From Aequorivita viscosa (lineage in GTDB: Bacteria > Bacteroidota > Bacteroidia > Flavobacteriales > Flavobacteriaceae), in the NCBI RefSeq assembly GCF_900106795.1, contig NZ_FNNS01000016.1, positions 1 through 64,000 of the forward strand: a stretch of DNA of 64,000 nucleotides, given 5' to 3'. The notes under the pieces were generated by a model. It was not told the DNA's origin. It worked only from the letters and a program-made list of their open reading frames with translations, and did not search any database. Below are positions 1-42,029 of the stretch, piece after piece. Each line of letters starts with the position of its first letter. Position 1 is the stretch's first letter. Made by a program: the position numbers and the translations under genes.

Positions 1-701
1 GGATCGTATTTTTCAGTCATGCTTGGGGTGATCCCATTATCGTCCAATAATTTTTGATAGTCATTTGAGCAATATTGCAATCCCCTGTCAGAGTGGTGTA
101 TTAATGGGTACTCTCTTTGTTTTCGATTGTTCAGAGCCATTTCCAATGCTTTTACTGAACCATCCACAGAAAGTGAGGTCGATACATTATACCCTACGAT
201 TTTTTTTGAATATGCGTCCGTAATCAATGCCAGATACGATGGATTGGCTCTGGTCCCTACATATGTTATATCGCTTACCCATACAGAATCTGGGCTTTCT
301 ATATCCAATGTGCTTACAAGATTTTTATGTTTTCTAAATCGATGGTGCGAGTTTGTTGTAATATGGTACCGTCTTTTTGGAGTTATCAGCATATGGTTAG
401 CGCTTAATATTCTAAAGAGTTTATCCCTCCCGACTTTAAGGGGTGACAATTGATCTTTAAGTAAAAAATATAGTTTTTTACCGCCCAACCTGGGCATAAT
501 CATTCGGACCTCCCTCACCATCGCTATTACCTTTTGAGCAATGGACTGTTTATGCAGTCTAGTCTTTTTTGATCTATAATAAACCTGTCTGTTTACCCCG
601 AGCAAATCACAGGTGGAAACTACTGTTTCTCTGTGCTCTTCTTTGAAGAGGTCGATAAGTCGGGTGTGTAATTTTTTCTGATATCTATTTGATATTCCTT
701 T
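1..701 (-). CDS. IS3-family transposase subunit B (orfB, rve integrase core), partial
   Basis: In the -1 frame relative to orfA an open frame runs from about 701 to the window edge with no stop and no ATG in its first part, so it is probably translated by -1 frameshifting at 671-677. The translation shows an HTH_21-type segment (GVNRQVYYRSKK), then the DDE core: first Asp in VSDITYVGTR, second Asp in IHHSDRGLQYCS, and the following GITPSMTEKYDP. The third catalytic residue, Glu, normally about 35 residues after the second Asp, is outside the window. About 225 residues of a usual 270-290 are visible. No internal stop is present, so the element could be active. Confidence 0.88.
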
Positions 702-1054
702 TCAGCCAAATCTACAAGCATATCAAATATTATCGCTTTCTTATCAGCACGCTCGGCTAGATGTTCGGCCCTGGCCTTCTGTTTTTCGAGCAGCTTGACC
801 TTGGCCTCCAGTTCGAGTATTCTTTGTTCGGGAGTCTTTGACATTGTTATGGGAGCTTGGTTTTCCCAATCAAAGTTACCATATTTCTGTAACCATTTTC
901 TCACGGTTGAATCCCCTTGGATACCATACTTGGTCTTTGCTTCGCTTTTTGTAAGAACACCTTGTTCTATTTCTTGAATTAACTGGAGCTTAAAAGAAAG
1001 TGAGTAGTCTTTTTGGGTACGTTTCCTATACCCACTGTTTTCTGATGTTTTCAT
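620..1054 (-). CDS. IS3-family transposase subunit A (orfA)
   Basis: A protein of 144 residues with an N-terminal helix-turn-helix of the IS3 orfA type (about residues 15-60, including the run DSTVRKWLQKYG), followed by a charged coiled coil at about residues 72-105 (repeated LE/LA heptads) that would serve for dimerisation. It binds the element ends and, after frameshifting, forms the N-terminus of the OrfAB transposase. It ends 15 codons after the A-rich slippery site at 671-677 (minus strand), as expected for programmed -1 frameshifting. The reading frame is intact. The subgroup (IS150 or IS3) is not certain. Confidence 0.88.
   Translation of the reverse strand: MKTSENSGYRKRTQKDYSLSFKLQLIQEIEQGVLTKSEAKTKYGIQGDSTVRKWLQKYGNFDWENQAPITMSKTPEQRILELEAKVKLLEKQKARAEHLAERADKKAIIFDMLVDLAEKEYQIDIRKNYTPDLSTSSKKSTEKQ
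671..677 (-). other. putative -1 frameshift site of the IS3 element
   Basis: On the minus strand the run AGAAAAAAT reads as aga-aaa-aat in orfA and as aaa-aaa in the -1 frame of orfB. This is the A-rich X_XXY_YYZ slippery pattern known for IS3 elements. It lies in the orfA/orfB overlap, upstream of the orfA stop. Slippage itself is inferred. Confidence 0.65.
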
Positions 1055-3016: not shown

Positions 3017-6000
3017 CTATTTCTTTTCAATCCATTTTCTTGCATTAACTAAGGCTTCAACCCAAGGAGAAACTTTGTCATCCTTTCTATCTTGTGGGTA
3101 ATATGCCCAGTTCCAAGGGAACGTAGAACGCTCTAAGTGAGGCATCATTACTAAATGGCGACCTGTTTTATCAGTCATCATAGCAGTGTTGAAATCACTT
3201 CCGTTTGGATTTGATGGCAATTTATCATAACCGTATTTTGCAACAATATTGTAGTGGCTTTCCTCTTTTGGGAAACTGAATTTTCCTTCCCCGTGAGCCG
3301 ACCAAATTCCTAATGTGCTTCCTGCCATTGAAGATAACATCACAGAATTATTCTCCTGAATTTTTACCGAAGTAAACACACATTCAAATTTATTGGTATC
3401 GTTATGAAGCATTTTTGGTTTTTCTTCATCTTCAGGATTAAGTAATCCTAACTCCACAAATAACTGGCATCCGTTACAAACACCTAAGGATAATGTGTCG
3501 TCTTTAGCAAAGAAATTCTTTAATGCTTTATTCGCTTTTTCGTTGTAAAGGAAAGCTCCAGCCCAACCTTTTGCACTTCCTAAAACATCACTGTTACTAA
3601 ATCCACCAACAGCAACTAAGAATTTTATATCCTCAAGATCTTCACGACCTTCAATAAGATCGGTCATATGCACATCTTTTACATCAAATCCTGCCAAGTG
3701 CATCATATAAGCCATTTCGCGCTCACTGTTACTTCCTTTTTCACGGATTACAGCTGCCTTGGGTCTCGACTGCGCTCGACCTGACAATGTCTCCTCGAGC
3801 GCAGTCGAGAGGTTGCCTGTGAAATTCTTTGGAAATTCGAAAGTTAATGGCTGATTTTTAAAATTGTCAAAACGTTCTTTAGCTAGTTCTGAACCGCTTT
3901 GATTTCGGTCTAATAAATATGAAGTTTCATACCAAGAATCACGCATTTCAGGAATGCTGAATGAAAGTTCTTCACTGTTATTTTTAATGGTTAGGGTTTC
4001 ATTAGTTGTAACAGTTCCAATCTTTTTGAAATCGATATTATTTTCAGATAGAAGTTTTTCAACTGAAGTATCTTCCGAAGCTTGAATTACAAGACCTGCG
4101 TTTTCAGCAAAAAGAACTTTTACCATATCACGTTCACCTAAGTTTGAAAGGTCTAAATCTGCTCCAAGATTAAGGTTGGCAAAGCACATTTCTAATAAAG
4201 TAGTAATCAATCCACCTGAAGCAACATCGTGTCCAGCAAGAATTTTACCTTCTTTAATGAGTTCTTGTAGTGTATTGAAAACGGTTTTTACGTATTCAGC
4301 ACTTTTTACATTTGGCGCTTCGTTTCCGATAGCGTTTAAAATTTGTCCAAAAGAAGATCCGCCTAGTTTAAAGTTGTCTTGAGATACATTGATATAGTAA
4401 ATACTACCACCACCGTTCTGAAGAACAGGCTCAACTACTTTTTGAATATCGTTACAGTTTCCTGCAGCAGAAATAATTACGGTTCCTGGAGAAATAACCT
4501 CTTCGTTTTTGTATTTCTGCTTCATTGAAAGTGAATCTTTTCCGGTTGGAACGTTGATTCCTAAATCAATTGAAAAATCTGAAACAGCTTTAACAGCTTC
4601 ATATAGTCTTGCGTCTTCACCTTCGTTATTACAAGGCCACATCCAGTTGGCTGAAAGTGAAACACTTTTTAAACCATCTTTTAACGGAGCCCAAACAATA
4701 TTGGTTAGAGATTCGGTAATAGCATTGCGCGATCCTGCAGCAGGGTCTATTAAGGCTGTTAGCGGAGAATGCCCAATAGAAGTGGCTACGCCCTCTTTAC
4801 CTTGATAATCTAAAGCCATTACACCGCAGTTGTTTAATGGTAATTGTAATTGCCCTACGGTTTGTTGTTTTGCAACACGACCCGTTACACAACGGTCAAC
4901 TTTATTGGTAAGCCAATCTTTACAAGCTACAGCTTCTAATTGAAGAACTTGTGTAACGTACTCTTTTATTTTTGAAGCTTCGTAAACAGAGTTTTTATAG
5001 TTTCTATTTACGGTTTTGTCTTTCATTATTGTTTTTGGTGAGCTACCAAACATATCTTCAAGAGCAAAATCCATAGGTTTTTTGCCGTCTTTGTTTTCAA
5101 AACAGAAACGTTGGTCGTCTGTAACTTTCCCTACTTCGTACATAGGAGAACGTTCGCGGTCTGCAACTCTTTTAAGGTTTTGAATGTTTTTATCACCAAT
5201 AACTAAGCCCATTCGCTCCTGGCTTTCATTCCCCATTATTTCTTTGTCGGATAGGGTAGGGTCGCCAATAGGAAGTTTGCTTATTTCTATACGTCCTCCA
5301 GTTTCTTCAACTAACTCACTTAAACAGTTTAAGTGTCCACCTGCACCGTGATCGTGAATAGAAACAATTGGATTATGGTCGCTTTCTACCATTGCTCGAA
5401 TGGCATTGGCAGCGCGTTTTTGCATTTCTGGGTTACTACGTTGAATTGCGTTAAGTTCAATTCCGCTGCTAAATTCACCTGTATCTGCCGATGAAACTGC
5501 AGCACCACCCATTCCAATTCGGTAGTTATCACCACCTAAAATTACAATATTATCACCTTCTTGAGGCTTGTCTTTTATAGCTTGACTTGCTTTTCCGTAA
5601 CCGATACCACCAGCAAGCATAATCACTTTATCGAAACCTAATTTACGAGCGTCTTCTTCGTGTTCGAAAGTAAGAACAGATCCAGCGATTAATGGCTGAC
5701 CGAATTTGTTTCCAAAATCGGAAGCTCCATTACTAGCTTTAATTAAAATATCTAAAGGCGTTTGGTAAAGCCAATCGCGTTCTTTCATTCCTTTTTCCCA
5801 AGGCCTGTCCTGAACGGAGTCGAAGGGCTCATTGTTTAATCGTGAATATGAAGTCATATAAACCGCTGTTCCAGCAAGCGGCAATGAACCTTTTCCTCCT
5901 GCCAAACGATCGCGAATTTCACCTCCACTACCAGTTGCAGCACCGTTAAAAGGCTCTACTGTAGTTGGGAAGTTGTGCGTTTCAGCTTTTAATGAAATCA

Positions 6001-6733
6001 CACTATCGAAATCTTTTTCTTCGTACCAATCTGGCTTATCTGCACTTTTTGGAGCCCATTGTTTTACCTTAGGTCCTTTTATAAAAGCTACGTTATCTTT
6101 ATATGCCGAAACAATATCGTTCGGGTTTTCTGATGAGGTCTTTTTAATAAGTTTGAATAGGGAAGAAGGCATTTCTTTTCCATCTATTTCAAAAACACCG
6201 TTGAAAATTTTATGACGGCAATGCTCACTATTTACTTGGCTGAAACCAAAAACCTCACTATCGGTAAGCTTTCTACCTATCTTTTTTGATAAGTTTTCTA
6301 GGTATTCAACTTCTTCAGCATTTAGCGCTAAACCTTCTTTTTCATTGTATTCAGAAATATTTTCAATTTCTAAAATTGGTTCAGGTTGCACGTTAATATC
6401 AAAAAGCTCTTGATTTAGTTCCTGAAATTTTTGAGAAATCATAGGGTCGAAAGCCTCTTTTACAACTGAACTGTTGTGAAATTCCTCTATACGAATTACA
6501 CCTTCAATCCCCATATTTTGAGTGATTTCAACGGCATTAGTACTCCAAGGCGTAATCATAGCTGCGCGAGGACCAATAAAAAAATCCGACGTGTTTGTGG
6601 ACAGGACGGATTCCTCTAACTTAGCCTGATTGCCAAAAAGCCATTCCAGCTTTTTAGTATTTTCTTCTGAAATATTTGCGTGGGTTTGAACGGCAAATAC
6701 GGTGTTTTCGGTATTCCCAAAAAAGTGAATCAT
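3017..6733 (-). CDS. purL: phosphoribosylformylglycinamidine synthase (FGAM synthase)
   Basis: Large single-chain PurL of 1238 residues, catalysing FGAR plus glutamine and ATP to FGAM in purine synthesis. The order is N-terminal PurS-like region, linker with SEVFGFSQVNSEHCRHKIF, two AIR-synthase-type halves (KAETHNFPTTVEPFNGAATG near residue 250; GINVPTGKDSLSM near 745), and a C-terminal class I glutaminase from about residue 990 with nucleophile Cys1086 in LGVCNGCQLF and catalytic His in MMPHLERS. Two in-frame stretches, about residues 302-311 and 974-991, coincide with repeat sequences and look inserted. Neither disrupts a catalytic motif. A minus-7-type box TACCTTTG lies at 6764-6771 (minus strand) above the start. 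Confidence 0.97.
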   Translation of the reverse strand: MIHFFGNTENTVFAVQTHANISEENTKKLEWLFGNQAKLEESVLSTNTSDFFIGPRAAMITPWSTNAVEITQNMGIEGVIRIEEFHNSSVVKEAFDPMISQKFQELNQELFDINVQPEPILEIENISEYNEKEGLALNAEEVEYLENLSKKIGRKLTDSEVFGFSQVNSEHCRHKIFNGVFEIDGKEMPSSLFKLIKKTSSENPNDIVSAYKDNVAFIKGPKVKQWAPKSADKPDWYEEKDFDSVISLKAETHNFPTTVEPFNGAATGSGGEIRDRLAGGKGSLPLAGTAVYMTSYSRLNNEPFDSVQDRPWEKGMKERDWLYQTPLDILIKASNGASDFGNKFGQPLIAGSVLTFEHEEDARKLGFDKVIMLAGGIGYGKASQAIKDKPQEGDNIVILGGDNYRIGMGGAAVSSADTGEFSSGIELNAIQRSNPEMQKRAANAIRAMVESDHNPIVSIHDHGAGGHLNCLSELVEETGGRIEISKLPIGDPTLSDKEIMGNESQERMGLVIGDKNIQNLKRVADRERSPMYEVGKVTDDQRFCFENKDGKKPMDFALEDMFGSSPKTIMKDKTVNRNYKNSVYEASKIKEYVTQVLQLEAVACKDWLTNKVDRCVTGRVAKQQTVGQLQLPLNNCGVMALDYQGKEGVATSIGHSPLTALIDPAAGSRNAITESLTNIVWAPLKDGLKSVSLSANWMWPCNNEGEDARLYEAVKAVSDFSIDLGINVPTGKDSLSMKQKYKNEEVISPGTVIISAAGNCNDIQKVVEPVLQNGGGSIYYINVSQDNFKLGGSSFGQILNAIGNEAPNVKSAEYVKTVFNTLQELIKEGKILAGHDVASGGLITTLLEMCFANLNLGADLDLSNLGERDMVKVLFAENAGLVIQASEDTSVEKLLSENNIDFKKIGTVTTNETLTIKNNSEELSFSIPEMRDSWYETSYLLDRNQSGSELAKERFDNFKNQPLTFEFPKNFTGNLSTALEETLSGRAQSRPKAAVIREKGSNSEREMAYMMHLAGFDVKDVHMTDLIEGREDLEDIKFLVAVGGFSNSDVLGSAKGWAGAFLYNEKANKALKNFFAKDDTLSLGVCNGCQLFVELGLLNPEDEEKPKMLHNDTNKFECVFTSVKIQENNSVMLSSMAGSTLGIWSAHGEGKFSFPKEESHYNIVAKYGYDKLPSNPNGSDFNTAMMTDKTGRHLVMMPHLERSTFPWNWAYYPQDRKDDKVSPWVEALVNARKWIEKK
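3764..3810. repeat. palindromic repeat inside purL coding sequence
   Basis: Perfect 16-base inverted arms, TCTCGACTGCGCTCGA (3764-3779) and its complement at 3795-3810, with a 15-base spacer. It is GC-rich against the AT-rich gene and is read in frame as a linker peptide ending RAQSRP just before the glutaminase domain of PurL. Confidence 0.85.
5802..5830. repeat. second repeat-derived insertion inside purL
   Basis: The stretch contains CCTGTCCTGAACGGAGTCGA, which resembles half of an interspersed flavobacterial GTCGA-type repeat. It is read in frame on the minus strand as the peptide PFDSVQDRP, in a surface-loop position between conserved SYSRL and the KERDWLYQTPLDIL segment. Confidence 0.55.
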
Positions 6734-18433: not shown

Positions 18434-18544
18434 TTTTGGTTTTTTAAGGGCGGCAAAGATAGTGTTTTTGAAAATAGGCCTAAACCTCTTTTTTGAAAGT
18501 TAGCGATATAGTTATTTTAAGAAGATGCAAAGATGCGGATCAAT

Positions 18545-18588
18545 CATAGATAAGCCATAGATAAGCCATAGATAAGCCATAGATAAGT
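18545..18588. repeat. 11-bp tandem repeat, four copies
   Basis: Unit CATAGATAAGC repeated at 18545, 18556, 18567 and 18578 (last copy ends in T), followed by a partly related CATTAAAAGCCATTAAAA stretch. It lies about 110 bases upstream of the sulP start and could vary in copy number. Confidence 0.9.
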
Positions 18589-18599
18589 CATTAAAAGCC

Positions 18600-39425: not shown

Positions 39426-42029
39426 ATGATAGAATTTAAAACCAATATATTGCGAAAGACCTCACAGGTTTCAGTTGAGACCTCACTGGTTTTTCAAACC
39501 TGTGAGGTCTGGGGACACTCAAAGAAGACCCCAAGGGTTTTTAAAACCTTTGTGGTTTGGAACCACGATATTATTCCGAATGAAGTTTTTCATCTTAGCA
39601 GAAATCTTTTTCTCACTGTTTTCTTCTTATTTATTACTATTCCTCTTTTCGCGCAGTTTTCCGTCTCGGGAAAAGTGCTTTATAAAGCCAATAATCTGCC
39701 TATTCAAAATGCTGAAGTTTACAATCTCGATTTAGGGAAATCGACAATTACCGATACCGAAGGAAGTTTTCAATTCGATAACGTGCCTGCCGGAACCTAC
39801 GAATTTGCTGTATTTGATATGGAATACAAGGTTTTGAAGGAGTCGATTACTGTTTCTCAAAACACAATTGTAAATTTTGAATTAGAACCCTTGGGCGAAC
39901 AGCTTTCCGAAGTTGTTATAAAGAGAAGGAAGGAAGAGGTTTTTGCCTTACGCAGTTTAAAACAAGTAGAGGGAACCGCCATTTACGCTGGGAAAAAGAG
40001 TGAAGTAGTAGTGATTGATAACCTCACTTCCAATACCGCAACCAACAATGCGCGACAGATTTACGCTCAGGTTGTAGGGTTGAATATTTACGAAAACAAT
40101 GATGGTGGTCTACAACTTAATATTGGCGGAAGAGGTCTAAACCCAAATAGGACAGCCAATTTCAATACACGTCAAAATGGGTATGATATTTCTGCTGATG
40201 TCTTGGGCTATCCAGAGAGTTATTACACCCCGCCAGCCGATGCATTAAGCGAGATTGAAGTGGTTCGTGGTGCGGCTTCGCTTCAGTACGGAACCCAATT
40301 TGGAGGGTTGATCAACTTTGTTCTTAAAAAACCAAATCCAGATAAGAAGTTTGAATGGGTTTCCCGGCAATCGTTGGGTTCCTTCAACTTGTTTAATAGC
40401 TTCAATAGTTTTAGCGGAACGGCAGGGAAATTGGGATATTACACTTATTATAATTTTAAAACGGGCGATGATTTCCGTCCTAATTCGCAATTCGATTCGC
40501 ATAACGCCTTTGCACACTTAGACTATGCGTTTTCTGAAAAGACTAAGCTCACTTTTGAAATGAGTTACCTTCATTATTTGGCACAACAGCCTGGAGGCTT
40601 AACAGACAGGCAATTTGAAGAAGATCCAACTTTCAGCAACCGCACACGCAACTGGTTTGAAGTAAATTGGAAATTATATTCATTGCGTTTTGATCATAGT
40701 TTTTCAGAAAGAACAGATTTTAGCCTAAACGTATTCGCTTTAGATGCCAGCCGAAAAACAGTTGGGTTTAGGGAAAATCGTGTTTCACAAGTAGACGATT
40801 TAGAGAAACCACGCGAGTTAATTTCAGGAAACTTCAATAACTGGGGCGCCGAAGCACGAATTTTAACGCGTTATGACTTTTTAGGAAAAGAGAATATAGT
40901 TCTTTTTGGAGGGAAATATTACCAGTCAAATAATGATGAGCGTCAAGGTCCAGGAACCAATGGAATGGACGCAAATTTTAATTTTGCTTCCTCCACATAT
41001 CCTAATTACGAGCGTCAGAGTGATTTTACATTTCCAAATTTAAATTTCGCAGCCTTTGGTGAAAACATTTTTAATCTTTCATCTAAGTTTTCTGTTACAC
41101 CCGGTTTTCGATTTGAATATATAAAGACTCAAAGTGAAGGTGAGTACAAAAAAATTAATTTTGACATTGCTGGAAACCCGATCTTAAATGAGGACATTCC
41201 CGATAATCGTGAATTTGAACGAGCATTTGTGCTGTTGGGCGTTGGTGTAAGCTATAAACCCACAAAACAAACCGAGCTTTACGGAAACTTAAGCCAGAAT
41301 TACCGATCAGTAACCTTTAATGATATTCGAATAACAAACCCCTCATTGGTTGTTGATCCAGATATTTCGGATGAAGAAGGATATACATTTGATATTGGAG
41401 CTCGAGGTCGATTTGGAAAATATGTTTCGTATGATGTTGGTGCTTTTTTCCTGAGTTATAAAGATCGATTAGGTGTGATTGTTCGAGAAGTAAGCGATAT
41501 TCAAGAAGAACGTTTTCGTGGTAATATTGGCGACGCTATTACGTATGGCTTCGAAAGCTTTGTAGATTGGAATATTTTAGAGACTTTTTCTATTGATAGA
41601 AGTTTTAGATTGAACTATTTCGCAAACCTAGCGCTTACAAATAGCGAGTACACTTCTTCAGAAGAAACGAATGTGAAGGGAAAAAAGGTAGAATTCATTC
41701 CAGCCGTAAACCTGAAAACAGGACTTGGTTTTGGTTATAAAGATTTTTTGGGAAGCCTTCAGTATACTTATCTAAGTAAACAATTTACAGACGCAACCAA
41801 TAGCGAGCGTGATTTTGAAAGTCAGAGTGGCATTATCGGCGAAATACCTGCTTATGGAATTATGGATCTCTCGGTATCCTATACGATTGGTCATTTTAAA
41901 ATCGAAAGCGGCTTAAACAACGTGTTGGATACGAGTTATTTTACACGAAGAGCGACGGGATACCCGGGACCAGGAATTTTGCCAAGCCAACCACGAACTT
42001 GGTATGCGACCTTGCAGATGAAGTTTTAG
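39426..42029 (+). CDS. TonB-dependent receptor, N-terminus disturbed
   Basis: The open frame gives 867 residues, but the first 50-60 derive from palindromic repeats. A normal signal peptide appears at NLFLTVFFLFITIPLFAQ, followed by a carboxypeptidase-regulatory-like domain (FSVSGKVLYKANNLPIQNAEVYNLDLGKST), a plug (DALSEIEVVRGAASLQYGTQFGGLINFVLKKP) and a 22-strand barrel ending TWYATLQMKF. It imports a chelate or small molecule with TonB energy. The best natural start, ATG 39580 (MKFFILAEIFF), is one base out of frame: one extra T in the T5 run at 39607-39611 would join it to the receptor. In-frame alternatives are ATG 39426 and GTG at about 39552. Confidence 0.85.
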   Translation: MIEFKTNILRKTSQVSVETSLVFQTCEVWGHSKKTPRVFKTFVVWNHDIIPNEVFHLSRNLFLTVFFLFITIPLFAQFSVSGKVLYKANNLPIQNAEVYNLDLGKSTITDTEGSFQFDNVPAGTYEFAVFDMEYKVLKESITVSQNTIVNFELEPLGEQLSEVVIKRRKEEVFALRSLKQVEGTAIYAGKKSEVVVIDNLTSNTATNNARQIYAQVVGLNIYENNDGGLQLNIGGRGLNPNRTANFNTRQNGYDISADVLGYPESYYTPPADALSEIEVVRGAASLQYGTQFGGLINFVLKKPNPDKKFEWVSRQSLGSFNLFNSFNSFSGTAGKLGYYTYYNFKTGDDFRPNSQFDSHNAFAHLDYAFSEKTKLTFEMSYLHYLAQQPGGLTDRQFEEDPTFSNRTRNWFEVNWKLYSLRFDHSFSERTDFSLNVFALDASRKTVGFRENRVSQVDDLEKPRELISGNFNNWGAEARILTRYDFLGKENIVLFGGKYYQSNNDERQGPGTNGMDANFNFASSTYPNYERQSDFTFPNLNFAAFGENIFNLSSKFSVTPGFRFEYIKTQSEGEYKKINFDIAGNPILNEDIPDNREFERAFVLLGVGVSYKPTKQTELYGNLSQNYRSVTFNDIRITNPSLVVDPDISDEEGYTFDIGARGRFGKYVSYDVGAFFLSYKDRLGVIVREVSDIQEERFRGNIGDAITYGFESFVDWNILETFSIDRSFRLNYFANLALTNSEYTSSEETNVKGKKVEFIPAVNLKTGLGFGYKDFLGSLQYTYLSKQFTDATNSERDFESQSGIIGEIPAYGIMDLSVSYTIGHFKIESGLNNVLDTSYFTRRATGYPGPGILPSQPRTWYATLQMKF
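39479..39509. repeat. palindromic repeat at the 5' end of the TonB receptor gene
   Basis: Arms GACCTCACTGGTTT and AAACCTGTGAGGTC, 13 of 14 paired, loop TTC. A partial third copy (GACCTCACAGGTTT) directly precedes it at 39459-39472. The same stem sequence forms the terminator at 53737-53767. Confidence 0.8.
39528..39565. repeat. second palindromic repeat at the TonB receptor 5' end
   Basis: Arms ACCCCAAGGGTTTT and AAAACCTTTGTGGT pair at 12 of 14 positions, and a further small hairpin GTGGTT/AACCAC overlaps its end. It belongs to the same general class as 39479-39509. Confidence 0.65.

Follow-up and report, generated by a model that had tools for sequence, protein, structure and literature searches.

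The inverted repeat at 3764-3810, in the purL gene of Aequorivita viscosa, is probably an inverted pair of short mobile repeats of the REP/REPIN type, lodged in a tolerated protein linker that has been targeted repeatedly, with one occupant swapped for another and the hairpin itself under no kept function. The window here is the whole 64,000-nucleotide stretch of DNA that was analyzed. The evidence comes from further copies of the repeat in the genome and from the occupants of the same site in other species.

An in-frame repeat doublet in purL

The purL gene (3017-6733, minus strand), which is essential and belongs to purine synthesis, encodes a phosphoribosylformylglycinamidine synthase of 1238 aa, and the doublet is read in frame as residues 975-990, a position we call site A. 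Two fully complementary 16-nt arms enclose a 15-nt center. The left arm (3764-3779) is a repeat unit, TCTCGACTGCGCTCGA, with exact or near copies elsewhere in the genome, and the right arm (3795-3810) is the same unit inverted. Two inverted TGTC tags meet face to face in the center at 3783-3791 (GACA at 3783-3786, TGTC at 3788-3791), each standing three bases from its repeat core. The preliminary description had called the element a 47-base perfect palindrome; this is true of the 16-nt arms but not of the full 47 nt, because the center, CCTGACAATGTCTCC, is only partly self-complementary, and arms of 23 nt are 87% complementary. It was right to call the repeat GC-rich (28 of 47 bases are G or C, against 36.8% in the window) and to read it within the PurL frame with no stop; the 47-mer is stop-free in five of the six frames.

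The strand of 3764-3810 folds far better than shuffled sequences (z = -6.6 as DNA and -6.8 as RNA). Single repeat units fold no better than their shuffles (z -0.4 to 0.5, four units), so the strong hairpin is a property of the doublet. Two of these four units have a 5-bp stem with a 12-nt loop, one a 5-bp stem with a 6-nt loop, and one a broken stem with a 6-nt loop.

Residues 975-990 directly precede the glutaminase domain (GATase_5), which starts at residue 990 by its Pfam match, in agreement with the linker position first proposed. The repeat was also thought to add about 16 residues, to be seen as a clean gap on alignment with relatives, and here the comparison gave a different answer. The linker at site A is 23 aa long in this PurL and 17 aa long in 42 of the 56 named relatives judged palindrome-free. 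With a net gain of only about 6 residues, the gap is not clean, and the repeat largely replaces the linker.

The same gene carries a second in-frame repeat, absent from the earlier account. This copy of a sister form, CCCTTCGACTCCGTTCAGGAC, lies at 5807-5827 (minus strand; site B) and adds 7 residues relative to a 6-residue empty form. Compared with the empty form, site B is longer in 6 of the 27 rows matched and site C in 11 of 25, and many of the inserts are again palindromic repeats. A scan of 81 PurL genes for inverted repeats, made without knowledge of the family, found 47 at stem 8 (mean of synonymous-codon shuffles, 30); a scan of the same type at stem 9 found 5 (shuffle mean, 4.8), three of them at site A and one at site B. 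With counts barely above the shuffles, we rejected the family-blind scan as sole evidence, as it is too noisy. Its biggest cluster, near residue 45, is a separate feature.

Copies of the repeat in this and other genomes

Allowing up to 2 mismatches, TCTCGACTGCGCTCGA has 12 matches in the 3.5-Mb genome, two of which are the arms of 3764-3810, and the sister form CTTCGACTNCGCTCAG has 46; one place is common to both lists, and the reversed control gave 0 in each case. The search for further copies in and between genes, suggested at the outset, was thus productive. Beyond this genome, CTCGACTNCGCTCGA is present in 22 of 24 hand-chosen flavobacterial genomes (controls 0). It has 17 matches (control 0) in the genome of Aequorivita sinensis (L049), the closest named relative, with 98% identity in PurL.

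Orientation could be set for 38 of 41 loci (L001-L041); 13 of these copies, both arms of 3764-3810 included, have a TGTC tag at bases seven to four ahead of the core. We considered whether TGTC might be a pre-existing target and found no support for this. By eye, palindrome-free homologues with Pro-Val (P-V) codons show no CCTGTC; they have CCTGT followed by A, G or T, or CCCGT, CCGGT or CCAGT. In this survey L093 and L097, which do have CCTGTC, were counted as decayed repeats, and the DNA of L071 was left out. The lack of CCTGTC in palindrome-free homologues suggests that the element brought its tag along.

Seven host genes, PurL included, contain in-frame copies, and many other copies lie outside long open reading frames. 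The six other hosts are RNase R, HemD, LeuRS, HemW, MetRS and GltX, named from Pfam, NCBIfam and PDB matches (LeuRS from the genus search and its motifs), and all six read the copy in the frame that encodes [LS]S[AGT]V[EQ]. When aligned to solved homologues, RNase R and GltX show gaps at or around the repeat, and HemW and MetRS show them less sharply. Across the genus, 3 of the 24 RNase R rows that could be read carry the repeat, with 2 more outside the search pattern. In the RNase R of L363 the repeat is split by extra in-frame bases, perhaps a third case of nesting beside the two described below. Separately, a sister-form copy lies inside two open reading frames of about 200 aa in the same genome (L019 and L020, C46; STPLS in L019), which we take to resemble RHS/YD-repeat proteins.

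One site, different occupants

By eye, a palindromic repeat stands at site A in 24 of 80 named PurL loci and is lacking in 56. The 24 comprise all 14 loci of the Aequorivita group (L049-L062) and 10 others. Several of the 24 (L055, L072, L093, L097, L111) hold decayed repeats.

The genus set consists of 28 genomes, with species that partly overlap the named loci, and 26 of its PurLs are readable at site A. A palindromic repeat or its remnant is present in 25 and one is empty (G024), classes and occupancy being assigned by eye. The occupants belong to two classes, R and C, with no sequence resemblance to each other. Class R, with a GAGCGNAGTCGA-like core, accounts for 12 rows. Its four subfamilies are a GCTCGA doublet (4 rows), a single TTCGAGCGCAGTCGAGAA (5), a tandem GGCTCCGCTCGGTG (2) and CCTGAGCGCAGTCGAAGG (1). 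Class C (CCCCTCC) accounts for 13 rows in two orientations. A division into five unrelated families was considered and rejected, as four of them have a common core and now form one class.

The palindrome is indeed repeated, mobile-looking and read in frame in a domain linker of a flavobacterial enzyme. The first proposal, that the position fits selection for tolerated insertions, does not by itself obviously explain why 25 of 26 readable sites should hold a repeat or remnant, and from differing classes and subfamilies.

The GltX and LeuRS sites likewise hold different occupants among species. The GltX loop, compared in 27 genus rows, has a class R repeat in 3 of them, and 4 rows, one of them decayed, hold another palindrome, GACAGGGCAATGCCCTGTC. 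GACAGGGCAATGCCCTGTC is in frame in the GltX of L321, L333, L334 and L335, being doubled in L335 and decayed in L334. At the LeuRS site, L232-L234 have a different insert (32 versus 17 residues) with ATGAGTTATGAGTT-like repeats.

Candidate mobilizing enzymes

REP-type repeats raise the question of a RAYT-type transposase, and we examined the Y1_Tnp genes of this genome (7 loci) and of the genus (28 more). TCGACTNCGCTC occurs at 0 of the 7 own-genome loci and in the flanks of 4 of all 35, in one case (L171) at no more than 200 nt from the gene. In this genome, the IS200-like gene L042 has a looser sister copy, CTTTGGCTTCGCTCAG, at a distance of about 105 nt. Many of the strong Y1_Tnp matches are, by eye, presumably IS200-type genes. 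The 35 loci do not support a RAYT as the source of this repeat family, with no cognate RAYT gene flanked by the same repeat established among them; no mobilizer of the 3764-3810 repeat is established. A RAYT-like gene does occur in this genome (L045). It has a Pfam Y1_Tnp match, and we take it to be a RAYT partly from its motifs; the palindrome there, GACCTCACAGGTCTC...GAGACCTGTGAGGTC, is unlike the 3764-3810 repeat in sequence.

Three further features of the window were noted. A long palindrome at 39457-39510, AGACCTCACAGGTTT...AAACCTGTGAGGTCT, resembles the repeats flanking L045. Near the window start is a short open reading frame (620-1054, minus strand), which we presume to be similar to an IS3-type OrfA, and at 18538-18592 there is a short tandem repeat with an 11-base period, GATAAGCCATA.

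The class C palindromes point in another direction. When the site A palindrome (CCCCTCC) of the 13 class C rows was compared with an insert in LeuRS, 12 rows matched its 5-prime end better than any of 100 shuffles did; the remaining row, L215, has a marginal match, to a 3-prime end. In four comparison rows (three class R, one empty), the match is within the shuffle range. The LeuRS insert contains a DUF559 domain (E 1.2e-37, one insert tested). It stands in frame in 8 of 28 rows (L243-L250), just ahead of the FTTRPDT motif, which we take to be in the editing region of LeuRS, and typically has a C-rich palindrome at each end, L249 being one of the exceptions. In other species this spot holds a repeat or is empty. 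DUF559 likewise splits MetH (L253) and RecG (L267) and is fused ahead of HemD in L303. Further in-frame rows were seen by eye in RecG (L268, L273, L275) and MetH (L254), typically between C-rich palindromes.

DUF559 is common in these bacteria, with matches in 26 of 28 genus genomes (3 of them weak and partial only) and, counting weak partial matches, in 89 of 199 genomes sampled across the family. Among standalone DUF559 genes, several are flanked on either side by similar palindromes and others have none; L260 (this genome), L257, L258, L269, L272 and L274 lie within arrays of C-rich palindromes. Two or more C-rich palindromes accompany 20 of 27 DUF559 loci, 5 of 83 non-transposase controls and 15 of 35 Y1_Tnp loci, and a stricter count gives 14 of 27, 2 of 83 and 5 of 35. 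Of 30 DUF559 loci, only the 27 strong ones entered the first count; three weak ones, with 0 palindromes each by the stricter count, were left out. As Y1_Tnp loci have such palindromes too, the association with DUF559 is not exclusive, and we rejected the notion of a DUF559-only feature.

Together these observations suggest that DUF559 nucleases may mobilize C-rich palindromes, which makes the DUF559 cassettes a candidate source of the enzyme for palindromes without a RAYT. We found no literature on DUF559 with palindromes among the matches listed. It is tempting to speculate further, and we do so tentatively, that DUF559 (Vsr-like) nucleases might be a second class of palindrome-linked mobility enzyme beside the RAYTs. 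C-rich palindromes might then travel by themselves, PurL site A being an example, or together with the nuclease in a cassette inserted in frame, as in LeuRS, RecG, MetH and HemD. Unrelated palindrome classes might be rivals for shared landing sites within essential enzymes of the Flavobacteriaceae. This idea leaves the class R repeat of the window itself unexplained.

Turnover at site A and alternative explanations

The turnover of occupants was gauged on a quick tree of 65 PurLs with site A removed (26 genus rows, the 10 occupied loci from outside the genus, and 29 of the 56 named loci without a palindrome), in which 19 of 62 inner branches are open. Over the whole tree, the occupant requires at least 26 changes with nine labels, 17 with classes only (R, C, a Gramella-type repeat, empty) and 11 for occupied versus empty. 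Within the genus, at least 6 changes among R, C and empty are needed, where shuffled labels give a mean of 9.6 and a minimum of 6. The figure rises to 11 with subfamilies and to 15 when orientation is counted too. Since the class R subfamilies have a common core, some of the 11 could be divergence.

Individual genes display the steps of this turnover. In L214 and L218, a 24-nt repeat lies inside the loop of an older repeat, both halves of which are still recognizable, strongly suggesting in-frame insertion of a repeat into a repeat. In L209 and L217, decayed doublets have lost their pairing and kept the reading frame, so the hairpin itself seems not to be maintained. The sister genes L114/L120 and L200/L205 differ by replacement of a short tract rather than by a clean gain, and deletion or recombination must thus follow or accompany insertion. 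Transposition itself was not observed, nor was a target duplication established.

That same sister replacement would also fit a history in which homologous recombination swapped linker alleles between Aequorivita species, so that a few insertions and much allele transfer made the patchwork. The conserved coding flanks on either side of the linker would permit such recombination, and in L202/L208 and L194/L195 a short tract differs at the linker between near-identical flanks. However, the two unrelated classes and the two orientations of class C would still need separate insertions, the nested 24-nt repeats of L214 and L218 look like new ones, and both classes occur at site A outside the genus too. 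We consider allele transfer an unlikely account of the whole.

We give little credence to a single ancestral palindrome of the genus that diverged into the present forms. Class C, which fills 13 of the 25 occupied rows, does not resemble class R and matches the ends of DUF559 cassettes, unlike the three class R rows compared, and nested repeats are additions, not divergence. What such descent might cover is part of class R: its subfamilies, with their common core, could in part be divergent descendants, and the GCTCGA doublet may be ancestral, as intact or decayed copies of it turn up in three distinct regions of the genus tree (L193/L194, L209, L217).

A strongly folding hairpin at a domain boundary, present as a repeat or remnant in 25 of 26 readable genus rows, also brings to mind a signal under selection in purL, at the RNA or DNA level, such as an attenuator or a pause in translation between the domains. 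Such a role is very improbable, given the 56 of 80 named homologues that lack a palindrome by eye, the empty site of G024, and the loss of pairing with retention of frame in L209 and L217. Finally, a chance palindrome in a fast-evolving linker, which is indeed variable among aligned relatives, can be dismissed, as 0 of 60 Markov simulations of 64 kb produced arms of at least 16 nt with a spacer of at most 30, and the recurrence of the TCTCGACTGCGCTCGA unit in the genome refutes it.

We therefore favor a model of repeated targeting and exchange. Repeats would land in many genes, and selection would spare those in surface loops or linkers where the frame stays open; the PurL linker before the glutaminase domain would be one such tolerant spot. 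Once occupied, it could be targeted again, with newer repeats inserting into the older one, and deletion or recombination of the leftovers would swap the occupant, leaving species with different palindromes at one position. The hairpin would have no kept function, and the protein would simply tolerate the repeat. We infer that the repeat is moved in trans and that repeats may attract repeats. In a broader context, our results suggest that a few tolerant loops of core enzymes are used again and again by small selfish repeats. The genus offers a natural series for this, with 26 readable orthologues in empty, filled, nested and decayed states, in which one can test directly how selfish repeats insert into essential enzymes, turn over and are tolerated there.

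Comparison with known systems

Palindromes that encode protein have, to our knowledge, been described chiefly in Rickettsia and in some REP-rich genomes. Among the matches listed for queries that did not include the word PurL, we found no literature on palindromes in flavobacterial core genes, nor on one site re-occupied by several repeat classes in a genus. For the repeat core strings, no paper among the matches listed seems, by title, to be concerned with them.

REPINs are REP doublets that form hairpins, associated with RAYT transposases; those known are described as lying outside genes and next to a gene for a RAYT (Bertels and Rainey 2011, PMC3116915). Like these, 3764-3810 is an inverted pair of units that folds into one hairpin, and its units are repeated and scattered through the genome well above chance, as judged from the reversed control. 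Unlike them, its copies are low in number and stand in frame in core genes, and TCGACTNCGCTC adjoins none of the 7 own Y1_Tnp genes, the nearest approach being the looser sister copy near L042. We do not file the element as a REPIN because no cognate RAYT gene was established at the loci above.

A second comparison is with the CGTC/TGTC-tagged REP superfamily, whose members include dimers and intragenic units, with Bacteroidetes among the phyla covered (Di Nocera et al. 2013, PMC3733652). The likeness lies in the dimers and the intragenic units, and a TGTC tag stands at a fixed distance in 13 of 38 copies here. The superfamily has stems of 8-9 bp and loops of 4-5, whereas in the repeat described here the stem of a single unit is short or broken. 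With its tags facing inwards, 3764-3810 is of a dimer type that is rare for CGTC according to Table 1 of that paper; the same table lists no transposase association for the CGTC repeats. The paper also reports different REPs at about one recB site in two Xanthomonas species. Re-occupation of one site across a genus is not reported in the portion of its text examined, and the string "flavobacteri" is absent from its main text.

Rickettsia palindromic elements belong to Rickettsia, measure 105-146 bp and lie in frame in conserved proteins, where they are apparently tolerated (Ogata et al. 2000, 2002, as summarized in the review PMC2229807). The parallel drawn in the preliminary description, of such elements in a flavobacterium, is apt in that here too a palindromic repeat lies in frame in conserved proteins and is apparently tolerated. 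At 47 nt the element is shorter, and the comparison is one of descriptions and not of sequences, for which reasons we do not file it as a Rickettsia palindromic element. By analogy with the two systems, the repeat may nevertheless be taken to work as a REPIN or a Rickettsia palindromic element does.
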